From assembly GCA_019634625.1 (NCBI GenBank), contig JAHCBA010000008.1, positions 1-64,000 of the forward strand: a stretch of DNA of 64,000 nucleotides, read 5' to 3'. The stretch's first letter is position 1, and every line of letters begins with the position of its first letter. Under the pieces are notes generated by a model, which saw only the letters and a program-made list of their open reading frames with translations, made no database searches and was not told the origin of the DNA. Both the position numbers and the translations under genes were made by a program. This document shows positions 35,799 through 44,048 of this stretch, in pieces. Source of the stretch: Verrucomicrobiia bacterium (GTDB lineage Bacteria; Verrucomicrobiota; Verrucomicrobiia; Limisphaerales; CAIMTB01).

Positions 35799-38700
35799 TC
35801 AATGATCTCGTGCACGGTTGGTGGCGGGAGCGGACACGGGGGCGGGTGGACCCATACGTTCGACCAGGAACCACCGAGCCCAGCGCGTATAGGCGTCGTT
35901 GCCCTTGTCTGTGACAAGGTGATGGCGCAGGCGGGCGATGATGTCGGTCGGGGCCAGGGCAATCTGGCCGTCTGGCATCCAGCGAAACCCAGCGACCGCT
36001 TCGATCAATTCGACGAACCACGGCGGCGGTGGACCGGGCGCCGGGAATACTTCCCAGATTCTGGCTCGTTCACCGCCGAAGGTCAGAAGCCGATTTCCGT
36101 CCGGACTAAAGGAGACGCGCAGAACGCCCGAGGGATGGCGAAGGGGCTCAGTCAAGGGAAAGCCGGACTCGGCACTCCACAGACGGGCGGTGCGATCCAG
36201 CGAACCGGTTGCGACGATGCGTCCGTCGGGGCTGAAGCGCCCGATCCAGGTGGGCTGCGCGTGTTCCATGAGGGGAGTGACAGGATCTCCGGTTGCCGCG
36301 TCCCACACTCGCGCGCTGCCATCCGAAGCGGTCGTCAGGACTCGGCTTCCGTCGGGGCTGAAACAGGAGGATAGAACTTCACCCTCGTGGCGTAGCGGCT
36401 TGGCGATGGGGATTCCGGTGGCGGGATTCCAAATCCGGGCCGTTCGATCGGCAGAGGCGGTGACGAGGTGCCTGCCGTCGGGGCTGAAGGATATACCCCA
36501 GACGATCCCGCGATGACGCAGTGGAGGTCCTAGTTGACGTCCATCTTCAAGGCTCCAGAAGAGGACGGTTCCGCCGGCGTGGGCGGAGGCAAATCGGGCG
36601 CCACGGGGGTCGAAGGCAAGGCTGGTGACTTCGCCGGTGCCTCGACATGGGGCTTCGACTAGTGAGCCCGTGGTGGAATCAGCGATTCGCGCAAAGCCTT
36701 CGCTATCGCCGGTCACGACCCGGCGACCGTCAGGGGAGAACCTGGCGACCATCACATCCGGTGGGACGATCCAATCGACGACGGGCCGGCCGGTCGCCGC
36801 ATCCCAGATTTGGATTCTGCCGTCGAGTCCGGCGGCGAGGATGCGGTCGCCGTTCGGAGAGAATGAGGCGCGCCAGATGTGCGGTTCTTTGAGATGTCGC
36901 GGTAACTCCAGATCGGGACCAATGGATTCGCCGGTGTGCGAGTCGCAGAGGCGGAGCGCGTCGGTACGGACGCTGACGAGGACACACGTTCCAGCGGAAT
37001 TGAACTCGGCTTCGACAGCTCTACCAACGGTGGGTGGTAACATGAGTTGGGATGGCGCTCGCATTCGCAAGTCCCACAGTCGCGCCATCCCATCCTGGGA
37101 TCCGGTCACCATTCGGAATCCGGTGGGGTCGAGGTCGAGGCAGGACACCGGGGCTTGATGGTCGATCGGCTCCAACAGCGGAACGAGGTCATGAGCCTCA
37201 TACACTCGCGCCATGCCGAATTGGCTATAGGAGGCGGCCACCGAGTCGTTGGCACTCACCCGGAATCCGCCCCTGCCTTTCTCGCCTTCGCGGGCGGTGG
37301 CTACGATTTCCAGCGTGTCGGCGTTCCACAGTCTTGGCCAATCAAAATAGGATTCGGAGGCGAATCGGCGGCCATCGGCTGTGAAAGTGATCTTCTCAAT
37401 CTGGGCCGGGCTCGGCACGGAATGGACGGTGGCCTTCGCAGCGGTGCGAAATGGCCAGGCCACCAGTCGCTGCGAATTGAAGACGACGATGAAGATCCGA
37501 TGCCCGTCGGGCGCGAAGGCAAGTCGGTCGGGCAGCTCTGTGAAGTCATTCAGCGTGGCCATGGTTCGGCCTTCGAGGGCATCCAGGATCCATACTTCAC
37601 GATTGAGGAGGATCACTCCTACGACCCCCGCGGCGCGGGACTGATCCGCGTCCCGCACGGCGGCAGGCAAGGTGCGAGGTGCCCCGATCGGTTGGCCGGA
37701 TTCGAGGTCCCAAAGAGTTAGGGTGGCGTCGTCCTCGAAGGCAAAGAGCGTTCGGTCGTCACCCGCGACAATACCTGCCGGGAACTCCCTTCGGCCGGGT
37801 CGTTCGAGGATCAGGTGGCCGGTTTCGGCGTCGAGGACGCGAAGGAAGTGTTCTTTCGATTCGAGGATCAGGCGACGTTCGCCGCAGGCGAACTCGGCCT
37901 TGGTGATTTCGACGGAGTGAGTCCAACGCCGGATTTCGTGACCGGAGGACGTATCCCACAGGCAGGCGATACCGTCGACGGAGGCGGTCAGGACGCGGCT
38001 GGCGTCCGCGTTGAAGCGGACGGACTGCACGGGTCCGTCATGGACGAGGCGGGGCGCCGCCGGGAGGGCGAAGTTGTTCAGGGTCAGCATTGAGAGGACT
38101 CGTGCCGCTGCTTCAGCGTCCTGCGGGTTTTCCCGGAGGACCCGTGCGAACCAGAGGAGGGCGCGATACCGCTGATTGTCGGCGACGAATTCCTCAGCTT
38201 TCTCCCACTCGAGGCGGCGGACGATTTGGGCGAGGCGTTGATTGGCCCGGTCGGTTTCGGTCTTGGCGTGGGCGACGCGGATCGATACCCAGGTTCCGAC
38301 GATGGCGGAGACGGTCAAGGCGAGGGCGAGCAGCAGTCCGAGGCTCGCGACAAGCGGGTTGCGCTGGATCCATTTCCCGGCGCGATAGCCTGCATTGGGG
38401 GGCCGGGCGAGGATGGGTTCACCGCGAAGGTAGCGGCGGATCTCCATGGCGAGCCCGTTGGCCGTTGCGTAGCGAAGGTTTCGATCCTTCTGGAGAGACT
38501 TGAGGACGATCCAGTCGAGGTCGGCTGGGAATGACGTGAAGGAAGGCCGACGGCGGGGAGTATCGGGGTCGCCGGCGAGGCCCCGCAGGCGAAGCGAGGG
38601 TTTGACGGGCTCGCGTTCGCGGATGATCCGGCACATGCCCTCCAGTCCGGCGCGAAGGAGTTCCTGCTGGTCGAACGGCGTGACTCCTGTGAGGAGTTCA

Positions 38701-39611
38701 TAGAGGAGGACGCCGAGGCTGTAGATGTCGCTTCGAGTGTCCACCCCCTTGGCACCGGTCAGGACATGCTCCGGACTGATGTAGGCTGGTGTCCCGATGA
38801 ATTGGTGCAGGGTGGTGGCAGGCTGGGATAGATCGGACAAGGACGGTTGAGTGGCCTTGGCGATGCCAAAATCGATGATTTTTAGGATCGGATGATCGTC
38901 CCCCGTGGACACGAGGATATTTGTCGGTTTAAGGTCTCGGTGGATGATCCCCTTTTGGTGGGCGTGTTGGACGCCGTCACATGCTTGAATGAAGAGATGG
39001 AGGCGTTCACGAATACCCAGGCGATGCCGCGTGGAAAACGTCGTGATCGGCTCGCCGGAGATCAATTCCATGACGAAGAACGGGCGGCCGGAGCGGGTTT
39101 GTCCGGCATCGAAGATCTTGGCGATATTCGGATGATCCATCAGGGCCAGCGTCTGGCGTTCGGTCTCAAAGCGGTTGATGACCCGTTCGGAATCCATCCC
39201 CGACTTGAGAATCTTTACCGCAACGCAGCGTTTGACGGGCCGGTCCTGGTTGGCGAGGTAAACGGTTCCGAAGCCCCCTTCGCCCAGCTTGGTTAGGAGT
39301 CGGTAATGTCCGAGGCAGGCGTGTTCGAGGTCGGGATCGTCGGCGAGTGGAAAGGGTTCCGGGGAGTCGGCCGGGGCGCCAAGGCTGGCGAGCCACGCGA
39401 ACAAGCGAGCCTTGAGGGCGTGTTTCCCAGAGCAGGTTTGATGAATGTATGCCGCCCGATCCCCAGGCGTTGTGATGGCGATGAGTTCGGCCTTCAGGTC
39501 CTCGTCGATTGGCCGCAATCCATAACCGAGCAGGCAGGCGGGGCAGGCGTGGGCGTCCGCAAACGGCGGAAGCGACGAACCGCAAACCGAGCAGAGGGAT
39601 GTGTCTGCCAT
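35799..39611 (-). CDS. Membrane Ser/Thr protein kinase with WD40-repeat domain (STPK-2)
   Basis: A paralogue of STPK-1, 1270 residues from ATG 39611 (MADTSLC). ATG at 39660-39662 in the same frame would add 17 residues, but it directly abuts a strong hairpin, so 39611 is preferred. An N-terminal zinc ribbon (CSVC ... CPAC) is followed by a kinase domain at about 105-400: [50 protein letters not shown] transmembrane segment lies at about 430-450 (ASLGLLLALALTVSAIV), then the same linker type as STPK-1 (LEWEKAEEF ... ALLWFARVL), then WD40 repeats from about 520 to 1230. There is no ECF gene directly upstream; the nearest lies about 5 kb away across the PatG region. Confidence 0.9.
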   Translation of the reverse strand: MADTSLCSVCGSSLPPFADAHACPACLLGYGLRPIDEDLKAELIAITTPGDRAAYIHQTCSGKHALKARLFAWLASLGAPADSPEPFPLADDPDLEHACLGHYRLLTKLGEGGFGTVYLANQDRPVKRCVAVKILKSGMDSERVINRFETERQTLALMDHPNIAKIFDAGQTRSGRPFFVMELISGEPITTFSTRHRLGIRERLHLFIQACDGVQHAHQKGIIHRDLKPTNILVSTGDDHPILKIIDFGIAKATQPSLSDLSQPATTLHQFIGTPAYISPEHVLTGAKGVDTRSDIYSLGVLLYELLTGVTPFDQQELLRAGLEGMCRIIREREPVKPSLRLRGLAGDPDTPRRRPSFTSFPADLDWIVLKSLQKDRNLRYATANGLAMEIRRYLRGEPILARPPNAGYRAGKWIQRNPLVASLGLLLALALTVSAIVGTWVSIRVAHAKTETDRANQRLAQIVRRLEWEKAEEFVADNQRYRALLWFARVLRENPQDAEAAARVLSMLTLNNFALPAAPRLVHDGPVQSVRFNADASRVLTASVDGIACLWDTSSGHEIRRWTHSVEITKAEFACGERRLILESKEHFLRVLDAETGHLILERPGRREFPAGIVAGDDRTLFAFEDDATLTLWDLESGQPIGAPRTLPAAVRDADQSRAAGVVGVILLNREVWILDALEGRTMATLNDFTELPDRLAFAPDGHRIFIVVFNSQRLVAWPFRTAAKATVHSVPSPAQIEKITFTADGRRFASESYFDWPRLWNADTLEIVATAREGEKGRGGFRVSANDSVAASYSQFGMARVYEAHDLVPLLEPIDHQAPVSCLDLDPTGFRMVTGSQDGMARLWDLRMRAPSQLMLPPTVGRAVEAEFNSAGTCVLVSVRTDALRLCDSHTGESIGPDLELPRHLKEPHIWRASFSPNGDRILAAGLDGRIQIWDAATGRPVVDWIVPPDVMVARFSPDGRRVVTGDSEGFARIADSTTGSLVEAPCRGTGEVTSLAFDPRGARFASAHAGGTVLFWSLEDGRQLGPPLRHRGIVWGISFSPDGRHLVTASADRTARIWNPATGIPIAKPLRHEGEVLSSCFSPDGSRVLTTASDGSARVWDAATGDPVTPLMEHAQPTWIGRFSPDGRIVATGSLDRTARLWSAESGFPLTEPLRHPSGVLRVSFSPDGNRLLTFGGERARIWEVFPAPGPPPPWFVELIEAVAGFRWMPDGQIALAPTDIIARLRHHLVTDKGNDAYTRWARWFLVERMGPPAPVSAPATNRARDH

Positions 39612-39662
39612 GGATTGGCAGAACCGTGGAACCACCTGTAGGCGCTTGACGAGAGGATTCAT

Positions 39663-39696
39663 GCCCCCGGCGCGCGCTGTGCGGCGCGCCGGGGGC
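39663..39696 (-). terminator. Strong 13-bp GC hairpin upstream of STPK-2
   Basis: GCCCCCGGCGCGC and GCGCGCCGGGGGC form a perfect 13-bp stem around an 8-nt loop. No T-run follows on either strand. It lies about 77 nt after the stop of the Cys-rich ORF on the minus strand and so may end the protease operon, or attenuate read-through into STPK-2. It could also act on translation because it touches the upstream candidate ATG of STPK-2. Confidence 0.6.
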
Positions 39697-39773: not shown

Positions 39774-40097
39774 TCAGGAACAAAGGGCCTGCAACTGAGG
39801 CGGGATGGGAATATGTGCCTTCCCAGCTTCCTGCACCGCAAAGCAGATGGCCTTTTTGGCCGCGTGGGCGAGGCAATCGTGACACTTGTCGAAGTACCCG
39901 ACGGCCGCCGCCACGCAGGCTGGAAGATCCTCGGGGAATCCCACTGGATCACAAGGGCCGGCGACCAAGGCGGCGCCGCTGACCCCGCATTTGATACTGT
40001 CGATGACACTGCAATGCAGTGGTTGGATGTGGCGCGTCCGGGTCACGGAGCCGGAGGCGTGTCGAAGGATGGGTCTGGCTTGTAGGGGTAGTCTCAT
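39774..40097 (-). CDS. Small Cys-rich protein downstream of the PatG-type protease; candidate substrate
   Basis: A 107-residue ORF with eight cysteines (29, 37, 49, 61, 72, 75, 85, 106), including DKCHDC, and a C-terminus IPIPPQLQALCS. I recognise no family. There is no convincing signal peptide; the N-terminal 25 residues are basic (RPILRHASGSVTRTRH) and the Cys residues fall in the later part, as in a leader-core layout. Its ATG overlaps the stop of a 23-codon ORF (ATGA), so translation is probably coupled. The gene lies between the protease and the hairpin and is likely in the protease operon. A peptide substrate is one reading; a small disulfide- or metal-binding partner is another. The opposite strand is also open but reads less naturally. 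Confidence 0.5.
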   Translation of the reverse strand: MRLPLQARPILRHASGSVTRTRHIQPLHCSVIDSIKCGVSGAALVAGPCDPVGFPEDLPACVAAAVGYFDKCHDCLAHAAKKAICFAVQEAGKAHIPIPPQLQALCS

Positions 40098-40165
40098 GGT
40101 TTTTCTTTGTTTCCGGCCTTCGCGGGACCTCCGGCCGGGGGTGAGGGCATGTCGGATTGGGGCAT
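40094..40165 (-). CDS. 23-codon micro-ORF coupled to the Cys-rich ORF
   Basis: Starting at ATG 40165, 35 bp after the protease stop, a short frame encodes MPQSDMPSPPAGGPAKAGNK plus three residues. A GGGAGG sequence lies about 11 bases upstream of the ATG, a plausible ribosome-binding site. The TGA stop overlaps the ATG of the Cys-rich ORF as ATGA. The peptide is Pro/Gly/Lys-rich without Cys. It may be a translational coupler, a peptide product, or chance. Confidence 0.35.
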   Translation of the reverse strand: MPQSDMPSPPAGGPAKAGNKEKP

Positions 40166-40199
40166 GCTCTTTAACGCCTCCCGCGGGCGATCGGTGGGA

Positions 40200-42155
40200 T
40201 CAGTAAACCTCCCAATGGCGCGGGCGTCCAACCGTGACCGGGACGATGTCGCTGACGTCGATGGTGAAGCGGTGCACGCGACGGGCCTGCTCGAGGCGGC
40301 GCGAGGGATGGAAGAAGGTGAGTTTGACGTCCCAGCAGTCGGACCCCGGGCGGCAGATGACACTTCGCTCCACCTCGATGCAGTCGAGCTTGAAGCCGCC
40401 CTCGATGGCCGAGCGGAAGACCGTTTGAACCTGGAAGGCATTCGTGGCGGCGTAATTCATCGCTCGATCCGCTGAGGTCACCCCCAGGTTCCGAACTTCG
40501 TAATACACGCGCTCGAGAAAACGGGAGATGCCGGAGGTCTGCTCGGCGTGGTGTTCGGCTTCGTCCTTCTTTTTGGGTGCGGGACCGAGGACTGAATCGA
40601 CCAGGGCGCCCGTAGACCAGTTGTACATGCCGCGAACCTCCGGGACGATCGCGGGGACGACCGGTCCGCTCAGAAGGCGCGCGCCGCCTGGCAGCACACC
40701 CGGGATGGACACGCGTTCGATGCCTTCGGCGAGTTGGGCCTTGAGGAATTCGCGCAGGCGCAGGTAGCCCTCGGTGGCGAAGGGACCGGCTGGTTTGACG
40801 GCATAAATCGGTGTGGCGTCCACGTTGAGTGTCCAGATGACACTGGACGCGAGGGCAGGTTCGGCCTCGACTGCCGCGAGCCACTGCCCCGGGTCCTGAA
40901 CGTTCTTGCCGGTCTGCTGGAGCAGTGAATCCCGACGCGCCTCGGAACCGAAGTCGTAACCGATCTGGCCAAGGACATAGACGAGCGCGGGAGCACCGCC
41001 GCACGCGCAACTGCACGCGCAGCCAGCAGGTTGAATTCCAGCAGCCGGTTCCGCCTCGCGCATCGCGTGGGCGGGTGCGGAGGGGGATCCCGGGAGAGTC
41101 CGTGGCCCGGGGGGCTCGGTGTTCACGATTGGGGTGGCGACGGTGTCGCCGTGGGTGGATTCGTTTGCTTCGGACATGACGGGCACCTTTCTGTTGGTTC
41201 GTGCTTGGTTCGATCTGCTTTCCAGAGGTTGAACGCCGTGAAAGCGCAAGTAACGGGTTGGAGGTTCGAATGCTGGCGCGCGGCGCGTTCCGGTGTCGGC
41301 GAGAATTCGGGCGAGGGCGGCGGCGGGATTGAGACGTCCGGCGAACCATCGCCGGCAATCCCGCGCGGTCCGGGGATCACAACGATCGGCGGTTTCGAGG
41401 AGGACGGTGCGGATCGTCGCGGAGTTTGGAGCGAGACCTCGTTGGAGCTGGATGCTCAGGAGCAGTGCGGCGACGCCGGCGACGCGCGGCGCGGCATAAC
41501 TCGAACCGCTGCGCTCGTCGGTTCCACCCCCGGGGAGGGCCCCGCGAACCCTCGTGCCGGGGGCTAGCACACCCTGGACCCGATAGGTGGCGCCCCAGTT
41601 GTTGGAATCGACAGGCTCGCCGTGTTCGTCGGCGGCGCCGACGGCGAGGACGCCGGGGAGGGCGGCCGGGACCTGGTCCTCCGGGTCGCCATCATTACCG
41701 GCGGCGGCGACCACCAGGACACCACGATCGATGGCGCGCCTGATGGCGTTGGCGAGCAGGGGGTCCGCGGTGCGTCTTGAGCCGGGCTCGCCGCCGCTGA
41801 TGTTGATGACGTGGGCGCCGTGTTCCGTGGCGAGATCGACGGCGCGCGCAAGGTCAAGTTGCGAACAGGTGGCTCCTCCCTCGGGTGTCGCGCGGTAGAT
41901 CGGAATGATCAGGCCGCGACAACGAGGCGCGACGCCAGGAACGGGACTTCCCGGCTGACCGAAGATCAAGCTGGCAATGTGGGTGCCGTGATCGGCGGCT
42001 CCGACGTCCGACCCGAGAGTGGTCAGGGCGTTGAGGACAGTGAGGTCGGCTCCCTCGAAACCGGGATGGCGCCGATCGATGGGTCCGTCGAGGACCGCGA
42101 CAACGATGCGGGCGTCTCCGATTGATATACGCCACAAGGGTTCGAGCGCATTCAT
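40200..42155 (-). CDS. PatA/PatG-type S8 (subtilisin) maturation protease with PatG C-terminal domain
   Basis: A 651-residue cytoplasmic protein without signal peptide. The N-terminal S8 protease domain (about 1-290) has the triad Asp23 (VAVLDGPID), His56 (DHGTHIASL) and Ser219 (GSSYAAPRVAG), with Asn154 in AAGNDG. A proline-rich linker carries a Cys cluster, GCACSCACGG (Cys379, 381, 383, 385). Residues about 390-651 match the PatG C-terminal domain: YDFGSEARRDS, NVDATPIYAVKPAGPFA, FLERVYYEVRNLGVTSADRA, RPGSDCWDVKLTFFHP and a VPVTVG ending. In cyanobactin pathways PatA cuts the precursor N-terminally and PatG cuts and macrocyclises. Here both parts sit in one chain without an oxidase domain. 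The gene diverges from the RoxA-like cytochrome. Confidence 0.9.
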   Translation of the reverse strand: MNALEPLWRISIGDARIVVAVLDGPIDRRHPGFEGADLTVLNALTTLGSDVGAADHGTHIASLIFGQPGSPVPGVAPRCRGLIIPIYRATPEGGATCSQLDLARAVDLATEHGAHVINISGGEPGSRRTADPLLANAIRRAIDRGVLVVAAAGNDGDPEDQVPAALPGVLAVGAADEHGEPVDSNNWGATYRVQGVLAPGTRVRGALPGGGTDERSGSSYAAPRVAGVAALLLSIQLQRGLAPNSATIRTVLLETADRCDPRTARDCRRWFAGRLNPAAALARILADTGTRRAPAFEPPTRYLRFHGVQPLESRSNQARTNRKVPVMSEANESTHGDTVATPIVNTEPPGPRTLPGSPSAPAHAMREAEPAAGIQPAGCACSCACGGAPALVYVLGQIGYDFGSEARRDSLLQQTGKNVQDPGQWLAAVEAEPALASSVIWTLNVDATPIYAVKPAGPFATEGYLRLREFLKAQLAEGIERVSIPGVLPGGARLLSGPVVPAIVPEVRGMYNWSTGALVDSVLGPAPKKKDEAEHHAEQTSGISRFLERVYYEVRNLGVTSADRAMNYAATNAFQVQTVFRSAIEGGFKLDCIEVERSVICRPGSDCWDVKLTFFHPSRRLEQARRVHRFTIDVSDIVPVTVGRPRHWEVY

Positions 42156-42264: not shown

Positions 42265-42347
42265 TGTTGGAGAGGACCTGCCGGTCCTGTGAAGGGGTTG
42301 GCTGCCGGATCTCACCGTATGAACCACAACCCAATCGTTTCGAAACT

Positions 42348-44048
42348 ATGCGCACCCTGATCGAAGACGCACCAGTGTCACGTTGGATTGGTCCGGCCCT
42401 ATTGGTGGCGGCCGCTTTGCCGGGAGGCTGCGCGCATCGGCCGCCGGAGATTACGACAGGGACGCCAGTGCCCGGAGCGATTGGAACGGTGGTGAGCCTC
42501 GATCAGGGCTGGACCGCGGAGGAGCAGGAACTCTTTTGGTTTACCTCGCAAGGGTCGCGTATTGTGCCGTACGCGTGGTTTCTCGCACTGGAACAGGCTC
42601 GGAGTGAGGCGCCCTTTGCATCGGACCAGAACATCGATCGGTATCGTTGGCTGGCGTCGAGGCCGACGCGTCACAACCCGGATGGGCTACCGGTCGGCTT
42701 TGTGAAGGATGTGGATGAACGATCGGGTGAGTCGTGGGTTGGCGTCACCTGCGCGGCTTGTCACACGGGTCAATTGCGGTATCGCGGTGTGGGCATCCGG
42801 ATCGACGGCGGGCCGACACTGGCTGACGCCGAATCATTCTTCTTTGACCTCGCGGCTGCGCTGACAGCAACACAGCGTGAGGACGCAAAGTTCCAGCGTT
42901 TCGCCCGCGCGGTGCAGGGCGGTGGGGGCGATCCGAGTGGGGCAGCCGAACTGCGCGCGAAACTTGAAGCGGTGACGGGGGATATCGTCGCGAGGAATCG
43001 GCGGAATCGTCCGACGCCGGGGGCGGGAATGCCGGGGTACGCGAGGTTGGATGCCTTTGGCAACATCTTCAATGAAGTAGCGGGCCATGACCTCGGAGTG
43101 GCCGACAATGTAAAGCCGCCGGATGCGCCGGTGTCGTACCCGAGCCTGTGGGACACGCCGCAGATGGACCGCGTGCAATGGAACGGGATTGCCCATAACG
43201 GCGGGATCGGCCCGTTGGCTCGCAACATCGGGGAGGCGCTGGGGGCCTTTGCGCGGGTGAACATCCAACCGGAGCGCGGCTTGGAGGGTTACGAATCGTC
43301 CGTGCGCGTGGAGAACATGGGATTGCTCGAGAAATGGCTGGACACCTTGTGGTCGCCCCAGTGGCCGGAGAAGTTTCTGACGGCTATCAATGCTTCCAAG
43401 GCGGCGCGTGGTCGTGGGCACTATGACCGGCATTGCGTAAGCTGCCATGCGCTCCTTGATCGCACCAATCCCTCGCGCCGGATCCAGGTCGTCCTGGTTC
43501 CGATTTCAGAGACGAAGACGGATCCCGGGATGGCCACGGGCGCGCTGCGACAGGTTGCCACCGGGCGACTGAAGGACCGTCCGTCGCTCGTCGTATTGGG
43601 GACGCGGTTCGGGGACAGTGCCTTGGCGGCCGACATCCTCGGCAATGCCGTTGCGGGCACCATTATCGGGCAGCCCGTCCCGGCGTTTGAGGCGGCTCTG
43701 GAGGAGTACATGGCGATTCGGACGGTCTCGACGGTGCCGACACCTGTGTATCGTGCGCGCCCGCTCAATGGCGTCTGGGCGACGGCGCCCTATTTGCACA
43801 ACGGTTCCGTTCCGAATCTCTGGTCACTCCTCCAACGGCCGGAGGAACGCCCTGTTGAATTCCACGTAGGGAATCGGGAGTACGACCCGGTCCACGTGGG
43901 CTATCAGACGACACCGGACGCTGACGGTGTCTCGTCGGTGTTCGATACACGGCGCCCCGGCAATGCGAACACGGGACACGCCTGGGGAACCACGGAACTG
44001 AGTGACGAAGAGAAGTGGGAACTGGTCGAGTTTCTCAAGTCGCTTTGA
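42348..44048 (+). CDS. RoxA-like di-haem c-type cytochrome, predicted lipoprotein
   Basis: A 566-residue exported protein starting at ATG 42348. The N-terminal hydrophobic segment WIGPALLVAAALPGGC ends at Cys28 in a weak lipobox, so it is probably a lipoprotein. Two haem motifs are present: CAACH in VGVTCAACHTGQL and CVSCH in HYDRHCVSCHALL. The pattern ELFWFTSQGSRIVPYAWFLA, then LPVGFVKD and PLNGVWATAPYLHNGSVP, matches the RoxA/cytochrome c peroxidase-like family, whose best known member is the rubber oxygenase RoxA. Oxidase or peroxidase activity on an organic substrate is therefore possible. Codons end mostly in G or T, unlike plus-strand genes elsewhere in the window. Confidence 0.85.
   Translation: MRTLIEDAPVSRWIGPALLVAAALPGGCAHRPPEITTGTPVPGAIGTVVSLDQGWTAEEQELFWFTSQGSRIVPYAWFLALEQARSEAPFASDQNIDRYRWLASRPTRHNPDGLPVGFVKDVDERSGESWVGVTCAACHTGQLRYRGVGIRIDGGPTLADAESFFFDLAAALTATQREDAKFQRFARAVQGGGGDPSGAAELRAKLEAVTGDIVARNRRNRPTPGAGMPGYARLDAFGNIFNEVAGHDLGVADNVKPPDAPVSYPSLWDTPQMDRVQWNGIAHNGGIGPLARNIGEALGAFARVNIQPERGLEGYESSVRVENMGLLEKWLDTLWSPQWPEKFLTAINASKAARGRGHYDRHCVSCHALLDRTNPSRRIQVVLVPISETKTDPGMATGALRQVATGRLKDRPSLVVLGTRFGDSALAADILGNAVAGTIIGQPVPAFEAALEEYMAIRTVSTVPTPVYRARPLNGVWATAPYLHNGSVPNLWSLLQRPEERPVEFHVGNREYDPVHVGYQTTPDADGVSSVFDTRRPGNANTGHAWGTTELSDEEKWELVEFLKSL

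Follow-up and report, generated by a model that had tools for sequence, protein, structure and literature searches.

A 64-kb stretch of DNA from a Verrucomicrobiia bacterium (contig JAHCBA010000008.1, positions 1 to 64,000; hereafter the window) encodes a 651-amino acid (aa) S8 protease of the PatA type and, after an intergenic gap of 102 bp, a 107-aa protein with eight cysteines. We propose that these two genes quite probably form a leader-dependent peptide-maturation operon with PatA as its only cyanobactin-type enzyme. In this scheme, the cytoplasmic protease would recognise a PatE-type leader, LPxQxxPVxR, at the N-terminus of the 107-aa precursor and cut between Leu27 and His28, at HIQPL, a sequence of the form G/H-[VIL]-x-P-[SAL]. 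The product would be a helical peptide of about 80 aa with eight cysteines, neither heterocyclised nor head-to-tail cyclised, that would probably become disulfide-bonded after export and would most likely act as a bacteriocin-like antagonistic factor. A precursor with a conserved leader adjoins a dedicated protease here, as in pathways for ribosomally synthesised and post-translationally modified peptides; no core-modifying enzyme was recognised at the locus, and disulfides are possible.

The 107-aa protein carries a PatE-type leader motif

An earlier reading of the window (the original prediction) described three open reading frames (ORFs) at this locus. All three were confirmed, on the minus strand: the protease (42155..40200), a 23-codon ORF (40165..40094) and the 107-aa ORF (40097..39774). 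The features of the 107-aa ORF are as follows.

39774..40097, minus strand: 107-aa leader-tagged, Cys-rich precursor, likely substrate (homologue at locus L034; leader score)
40062..40091, minus strand: leader motif LPLQARPILR, residues 3-12 (leader score; PatE counterpart LPQQGQPVIR)
40017..40031, minus strand: proposed cleavage site HIQPL, residues 23-27, before His28/Cys29 (position matches other precursors; AlphaFold2 order only after residue 26)
39777..40016, minus strand: predicted mature core, residues 28-107, helical, eight Cys (AlphaFold2)

Small ORFs beside PatA-type proteases have a common N-terminal motif, LPxQxxPVxR. The version in the 107-aa protein, LPLQARPILR, matches LPQQGQPVIR, the opening of the PatE leader (PMC5108345), and the statement in the original prediction that no known PatE leader is visible at this locus must therefore be dropped. 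At 34 PatA loci, 26 of 4603 ORFs of 30-200 aa contained a strict form of the pattern (25 encoded on the same strand as the protease); none of the 5910 such ORFs at 52 control loci, which contain other S8 proteases, did. Because the pattern was first noticed in the counted loci, our argument rests on the comparison with controls and on left-out scores rather than on the raw count. A position-specific scoring matrix (PSSM) built without the window gave the 107-aa ORF 22.4 bits, compared to 16.8 for the best of 7258 control ORFs and 9.6 for the second best of the 564 ORFs of the window. The PatE segment NILPQQGQPVIR (PMC5108345), which was outside the training set, scored 23.4. When each locus was left out in turn, 18 of 27 non-cyanobactin loci, including the window, exceeded all control loci. 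Two NCBIfam cyanobactin precursor models also gave weak matches, below their cut-offs, to several homologous leaders. Elsewhere in the same genome, a second match to the leader pattern at the DNA level lies deep within a 276-aa ORF and was judged spurious. The PatB proteins of cyanobactin clusters (L009:12550-12765, L025:11776-11976 and L023:12408-12632) open with a version of the motif, LPKLAPPVKR, with a PSSM score of about 17.

The best relative of the 107-aa ORF lies 0.3 kb after a PatA-type protease in Flavilitoribacter nigricans (locus L034, Bacteroidota), in whose order a match was seen in 1 of 150 genomes. The two proteins are 42% identical over their full length (E 2e-27), with 8/8 Cys aligned. 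Their identity at codon positions 1, 2 and 3 (0.56, 0.63 and 0.35, respectively) indicates conservation at the protein level; a lack of homologues and of purifying selection, which the original prediction had named as grounds for giving up the idea, is thus not what we found. Shorter proteins with a related Cys layout occur in Aurantimonas (L033) and in an alphaproteobacterial metagenome-assembled genome (MAG; L014). AlphaFold2 predicts, with moderate confidence (predicted local distance difference test, pLDDT, about 70-76), that residues 1-26 are disordered and that residues 31-46, 55-93 and 100-106 form helices; the core had no significant fold match in the PDB. The leader motif, together with a homologue beside another PatA-type protease, supports the earlier guess that this Cys-rich ORF is the substrate, and we consider it very probable that the PatA-type protease acts on it.

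The protease has an ordinary PatA layout

The protease and its parts are listed below.

40200..42155, minus strand: PatA-type S8 maturation protease, 651 aa (TIGR03895, PF00082, PF18047, PF18065, AlphaFold2)
41307..42119, minus strand: S8 protease domain, residues 13-283, with Asp23, His56, Asn154 and Ser219 (PDB phmmer, alignment)
40995..41291, minus strand: disordered Cys-containing linker, residues 289-387 (AlphaFold2 pLDDT about 28-46)
41025..41039, minus strand: GIQPA in the linker (residues 373-377), a copy of the cleavage consensus of PatA-type enzymes, with GCACSCACGG next (linker survey)
40212..40982, minus strand: C-terminal domain of unknown function (DUF), consisting of PatG_D (residues 392-487) and PatG_C (536-648) (Pfam 1.9e-12 and 1.4e-37, respectively; Foldseek 4uvq)

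The protein scores 620 bits against TIGR03895, the cyanobactin protease model (E 4e-186; curated cut-off 421), and also passes the curated cut-offs of PF00082, PF18047 and PF18065. Asp23, His56 and Ser219, together with Asn154, are present and invariant in an alignment of 18 sequences. The original prediction was accurate on both the family and this triad, and the PatG C-terminal profile that it had proposed as a check matched the protein (PatG_C, listed above). In phmmer searches of the PDB, the protease domain scored 277 bits with PatA vs. 160 bits with PatG, the nearest solved structures being PatA and PagA, and the C-terminal part scored 211 bits with the PatG DUF (4uvq). The AlphaFold2 model (18 sequences, mean pLDDT 78.5) has two ordered parts with the disordered linker (289-387) between them. 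Its Foldseek template modelling scores (TMt) were 0.91-0.95 for PagA/PatA, 0.78 for the PatG macrocyclase and 0.90 for 4uvq; the assignment to the PatA rather than the PatG class comes from these scores and the fold, the macrocyclisation insert not having been traced residue by residue. Since the protease domain is far closer to PagA/PatA than to the PatG macrocyclase, cyclisation is not expected, and the same likeness of fold led us to rule out a macrocyclase role.

The C-terminal DUF is common to PatA and PatG (PMC4259220). The original prediction had seen a PatA domain joined to a PatG domain in one chain, but PatA itself normally has the DUF, ruling out a chimera. The 651-aa protein is almost certainly a PatA-type family member with the ordinary arrangement of protease plus DUF, a layout that is not novel. 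It resembles PatA and PagA in its S8 triad, PatG_D and PatG_C DUF and fold, and has the PatA-type consensus in its linker, as do most relatives. It differs from them in being the sole PatA/PatG-type protease of its genome, in lacking B, C, D or oxidase partners in the window and in the length and Cys-richness of its presumed substrate.

Candidate cleavage sites in the precursor and in the protease linker

PatA enzymes cut after G(L/V)E(A/P)S (PMC10885120). Many other precursors have G[VIL]x[PA]S-like sites just before the core, examples being SGVEANGFLDEW, SGIEASGWWDT, AGVNPAFWDS, AGIQPSGPIEC and EGVRQSGCNVL. We propose a cut after Leu27 in the 107-aa protein because RHIQPLHCS sits at the equivalent place, aligned with RHLKTSCS in L034; cleavage near this residue is likely.

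The linker of the protease contains GIQPA, a close variant of [VI]x[PAQ]S with Ala in place of Ser. The [VI]x[PAQ]S pattern is present in 27 of 36 homologous linkers, compared to 7.2 +/- 2.3 in shuffled linkers (maximum 16 in 2000 rounds), a shuffle that does not control for alignment or for ancestry common to related proteases. The only beta bridge of the linker in the AlphaFold2 model, two residues long and of low confidence, is at 375-376. Sites in linkers resemble sites in substrates more closely within their own locus than across loci (p = 0.001 by identity, 0.008 by BLOSUM), the two sites sharing VRQS in Aurantimonas and IQP in the window; this test is exploratory because the sites were chosen by hand. 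PatA self-cleavage has been seen, as recorded in the title of PDB entry 3zxx ('self-cleaved protease domain of PatA'). The linker copy, with a cut between Ala377 and the following Gly, could be a self-processing site or a pseudosubstrate. That the protease itself cuts there is a tentative proposal, to which we give slightly less than even credence, and it makes the PatA linker a directly testable self-processing site.

Leader-tagged peptides recur beside homologous proteases

Of 388 genomes sampled from the phylum, only one encodes a TIGR03895 protein, and none of four others from the same genus does. The remaining matches in the bacterium's own genome were generic subtilases. Relatives with 34-56% identity to the window protease are encoded on plasmids of Acaryochloris, Gloeocapsa, Gloeothece, Nostoc and Streptomyces and in genomes of Cyanobacteriota, Alpha-, Beta- and Gammaproteobacteria, Planctomycetota, Actinomycetota and Bacteroidota; viral contigs yielded none. 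This patchy spread fits horizontal transfer.

The pairing of protease and leader-tagged small ORF, without the usual modifying enzymes, extends to at least six phyla. A PatA protease alone with PatE-leader-tagged peptides was seen in Actinomycetota, Pseudomonadota, Planctomycetota, Bacteroidota and the window's own phylum, and the homologous loci of these five phyla mostly lack PatB, PatC, PatD and PatG. The original prediction would have lost ground had no small ORF been conserved near homologues of the protease; instead, such ORFs recur, with leaders.

The cores fall into different types. They are Cys-rich in the window and at L008, L010, L014, L016, L019, L024, L031, L033 and L034, and Cys-free and strongly amphipathic at L011, L013, L021, L026, L030, L037, L039 and L040. 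The hydrophobic moment exceeded that of shuffled sequences in 13/13 hand-picked amphipathic cores (p 0.001-0.015). A third type, from a Planctomycetia MAG, is a protein resembling phospholipase A2 (PF00068, E 6.7e-5, below cut-off). None of the sampled peptide members matched a Pfam or NCBIfam family above cut-off. We favour a bacteriocin-like role because these core types look like antagonistic peptides, and we regard it as evenly poised between right and wrong.

Three of the surveyed loci have features of their own. At L015:9913-10470, a phospholipase-A2-like protein adjoining a PatA-type protease has a leader-like start, IPKSSRGVER, and a GVTPQ site. The PatA of a Nostoc SO-36 plasmid (L010:7935-9311, 458 aa) has an internal deletion that removes the catalytic-Ser region, and is directly followed by a Cys-rich leader-tagged peptide. 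In another genome of the same phylum (G325:C255), a RebB-like R-body 'killing trait' protein (L130:1264-1527, minus strand; PF11747, 75 bits) adjoins a tandem row of three PatG_C DUF proteins, and one of the three starts with MNLPKL; this is a different PatG-DUF system.

Gene neighbourhood

One further small ORF lies between the two genes.

40094..40165, minus strand: 23-codon ORF, GGGAGG site, stop overlapping the next start (possible translational-coupling ORF or spurious)

This ORF, MPQSDMPSPPAGGPAKAGNKEKP, is preceded by GGGAGG, a good Shine-Dalgarno sequence, and its stop overlaps the start of the 107-aa ORF as ATGA. These elements are present as originally described, as are the eight Cys of the 107-aa protein. 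The ribosome-binding site of the 107-aa ORF itself is weak, none being clear, and it is a reasonable guess that the 23-codon ORF is at most a translational-coupling device for it. The original prediction had also considered the 23-codon ORF as a candidate substrate; we rejected it in that role, since it lacks the leader motif and nothing comparable comes directly after the protease at L034.

A promoter and terminator scan gave nothing usable. Downstream of the 107-aa ORF, a GC-rich long inverted repeat without a T run (39664-39695) lies right before the start, at 39662, of a gene for a Ser/Thr kinase fused to WD40 repeats (35799-39662, minus strand); the kinase part resembles PD-T4-6 defence models, a match that is probably generic. 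On the other side, a RoxA-like cytochrome-c protein is encoded on the plus strand (42267-44048). Its gene is missing in the four genomes of the same genus, and the entire stretch may therefore be specific to this genome. The scanned neighbours also include an M20 peptidase and sigma factors.

Relation to cyanobactin pathways and other explanations

Cyanobactin clusters always contain A, G, E, B and C genes and have been described only from cyanobacteria (PMC4663559). Near the proteases studied here, PatB, PatC, PatD and a SagB-type oxidase were found only at cyanobacterial loci (L009, L017, L022, L023, L025, L027 and L029), with the exception of a weak PatB-like match in L035. The 64-kb window contains no PatB, PatC, PatD/YcaO or SagB-type oxidase (the rest of the genome was not searched for B and C), and the genome has one PatA/PatG-type protease in place of the cyanobactin pair, A and G. 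PatE-type precursors (TIGR03678, TIGR04446) have the same LPxQxxPVxR at the same N-terminal place and a short site before the core. Of the PatE elements (leader, recognition sequences II and III, short cassettes), however, the 107-aa protein has the opening motif, a divergent sequence II-like stretch and no sequence III; LAELSEE and the C-terminal AYDG-type site are both absent, and its eight-Cys core of about 80 aa is not a short cassette. With the A, G, E, B, C set incomplete, we do not consider the window a cyanobactin cluster, although its protease belongs to the PatA family. In a tree of the proteases, those of cyanobactin loci L009, L017, L018, L023 and L025 form one supported clade (99/99) among PatA-only proteases; no evolutionary direction is claimed, since the tree was rooted at its midpoint.

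The locus could be what remains of a cyanobactin pathway, or a minimal one, in which the 107-aa ORF is a divergent PatE and its product is heterocyclised or macrocyclised by enzymes from genes elsewhere in the genome. The common protease family, the common leader opening and the position of genuine cyanobactin PatA proteases as a clade among these proteins would agree with this. We nevertheless find it very unlikely, given the missing partner enzymes, the single protease, its dissimilarity to the PatG macrocyclase, the absent LAELSEE and AYDG-type elements and the size of the core, compared to 7-20 aa for cyanobactins without heterocycles (PMC4663559). Even less credible is that the 107-aa ORF merely neighbours the protease: the intergenic gap and the weak ribosome-binding site would allow it, but the leader motif is specific to PatA loci and a homologue occupies the same position in another phylum. 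A third idea is a phage-defence module, including the adjacent kinase, in which an infection-activated subtilase would cut the neighbouring small protein to yield a toxic peptide. A PADLOC generic subtilase match (1.8e-23), the PD-T4-6 matches of the next gene's kinase and the amphipathic helical cores of homologues lend it some colour. The PADLOC matches reflect generic domains, however, the GC-rich hairpin and 111 bp set the kinase apart, and no defence genes recur in the annotated flanks of plasmid homologues, making this very improbable. The leader might, alternatively, be a general docking tag for the delivery or regulated release of diverse proteins, PatA-only loci then being effector-release devices. 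This is in keeping with the structurally unrelated core types, the leader-like start of the Planctomycetia phospholipase-A2-like protein (its family match below cut-off) and the motif version in PatB. Most cores, however, are short, hypervariable and sometimes tandem peptides, like peptide antibiotics, and delivery machinery was not recognised nearby; we consider this explanation unlikely, if worth keeping in mind.

Several observations weigh against a leader-dependent PatA-only operon. HIQPL deviates from the site consensus at P5 and P1, and the linker statistics carry the ancestry caveat given above. By PSSM, 9 of 27 non-cyanobactin loci fall below controls, eight of them with only divergent, hand-picked candidates. 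The PatG DUF alone showed no PatE' binding by nuclear magnetic resonance (PMC4259220). For the 107-aa ORF, L034 provides the one close homologue found over the full length, and plasmid and phage collections contained no relatives. Finally, the scanned flanking genes included none recognisable as a transporter or immunity gene (not every ORF of the window was scanned).

In class II type bacteriocins, a protease strips the leader from a small Cys-rich or amphipathic helical peptide, as proposed here. They differ in using a C39 transporter-peptidase rather than a PatA-type S8 protease, in their unrelated leader motif and in the ABC (ATP-binding cassette) transporter and immunity gene not recognised near our locus. 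Streptomyces scabies SCAB_66631 (PMC7369419) is a PatG-DUF homologue beside four short peptides, like the Streptomyces plasmid loci L011 and L012; the published account covers the DUF only, with no protease assignment, common leader or generalisation. A cyanobactin peptidase gene has been reported in Roseomonas (PMC8776678) and cyanobactin-like genes in Saccharopolyspora (PMC10145562). The open-licence literature yielded no account of PatA-only systems with peptides that bear the leader; subscription journals may contain one that we missed.

Implications

These data point to a widespread, mostly undescribed peptide-maturation system. PatA-only operons might be the older, widespread form of leader-dependent maturation, with LPxQxxPVxR as docking tag, varied cargo and a self-cutting protease, cyanobactin pathways having arisen later by recruiting PatD, PatG and others; we offer this as speculation that we think somewhat doubtful. 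If true, this older system would have cargo as varied as amphipathic helices, Cys-rich peptides and phospholipase A2. The pairing of leader and protease gives a rule by which to search for many more such peptides, a large and unannotated group with potential as natural products. It also suggests a likely role for the N-terminal segment of PatE, the binding partner of which was left open (PMC5108345), and would narrow the question about the DUF of PatA and PatG (PMC4259220).

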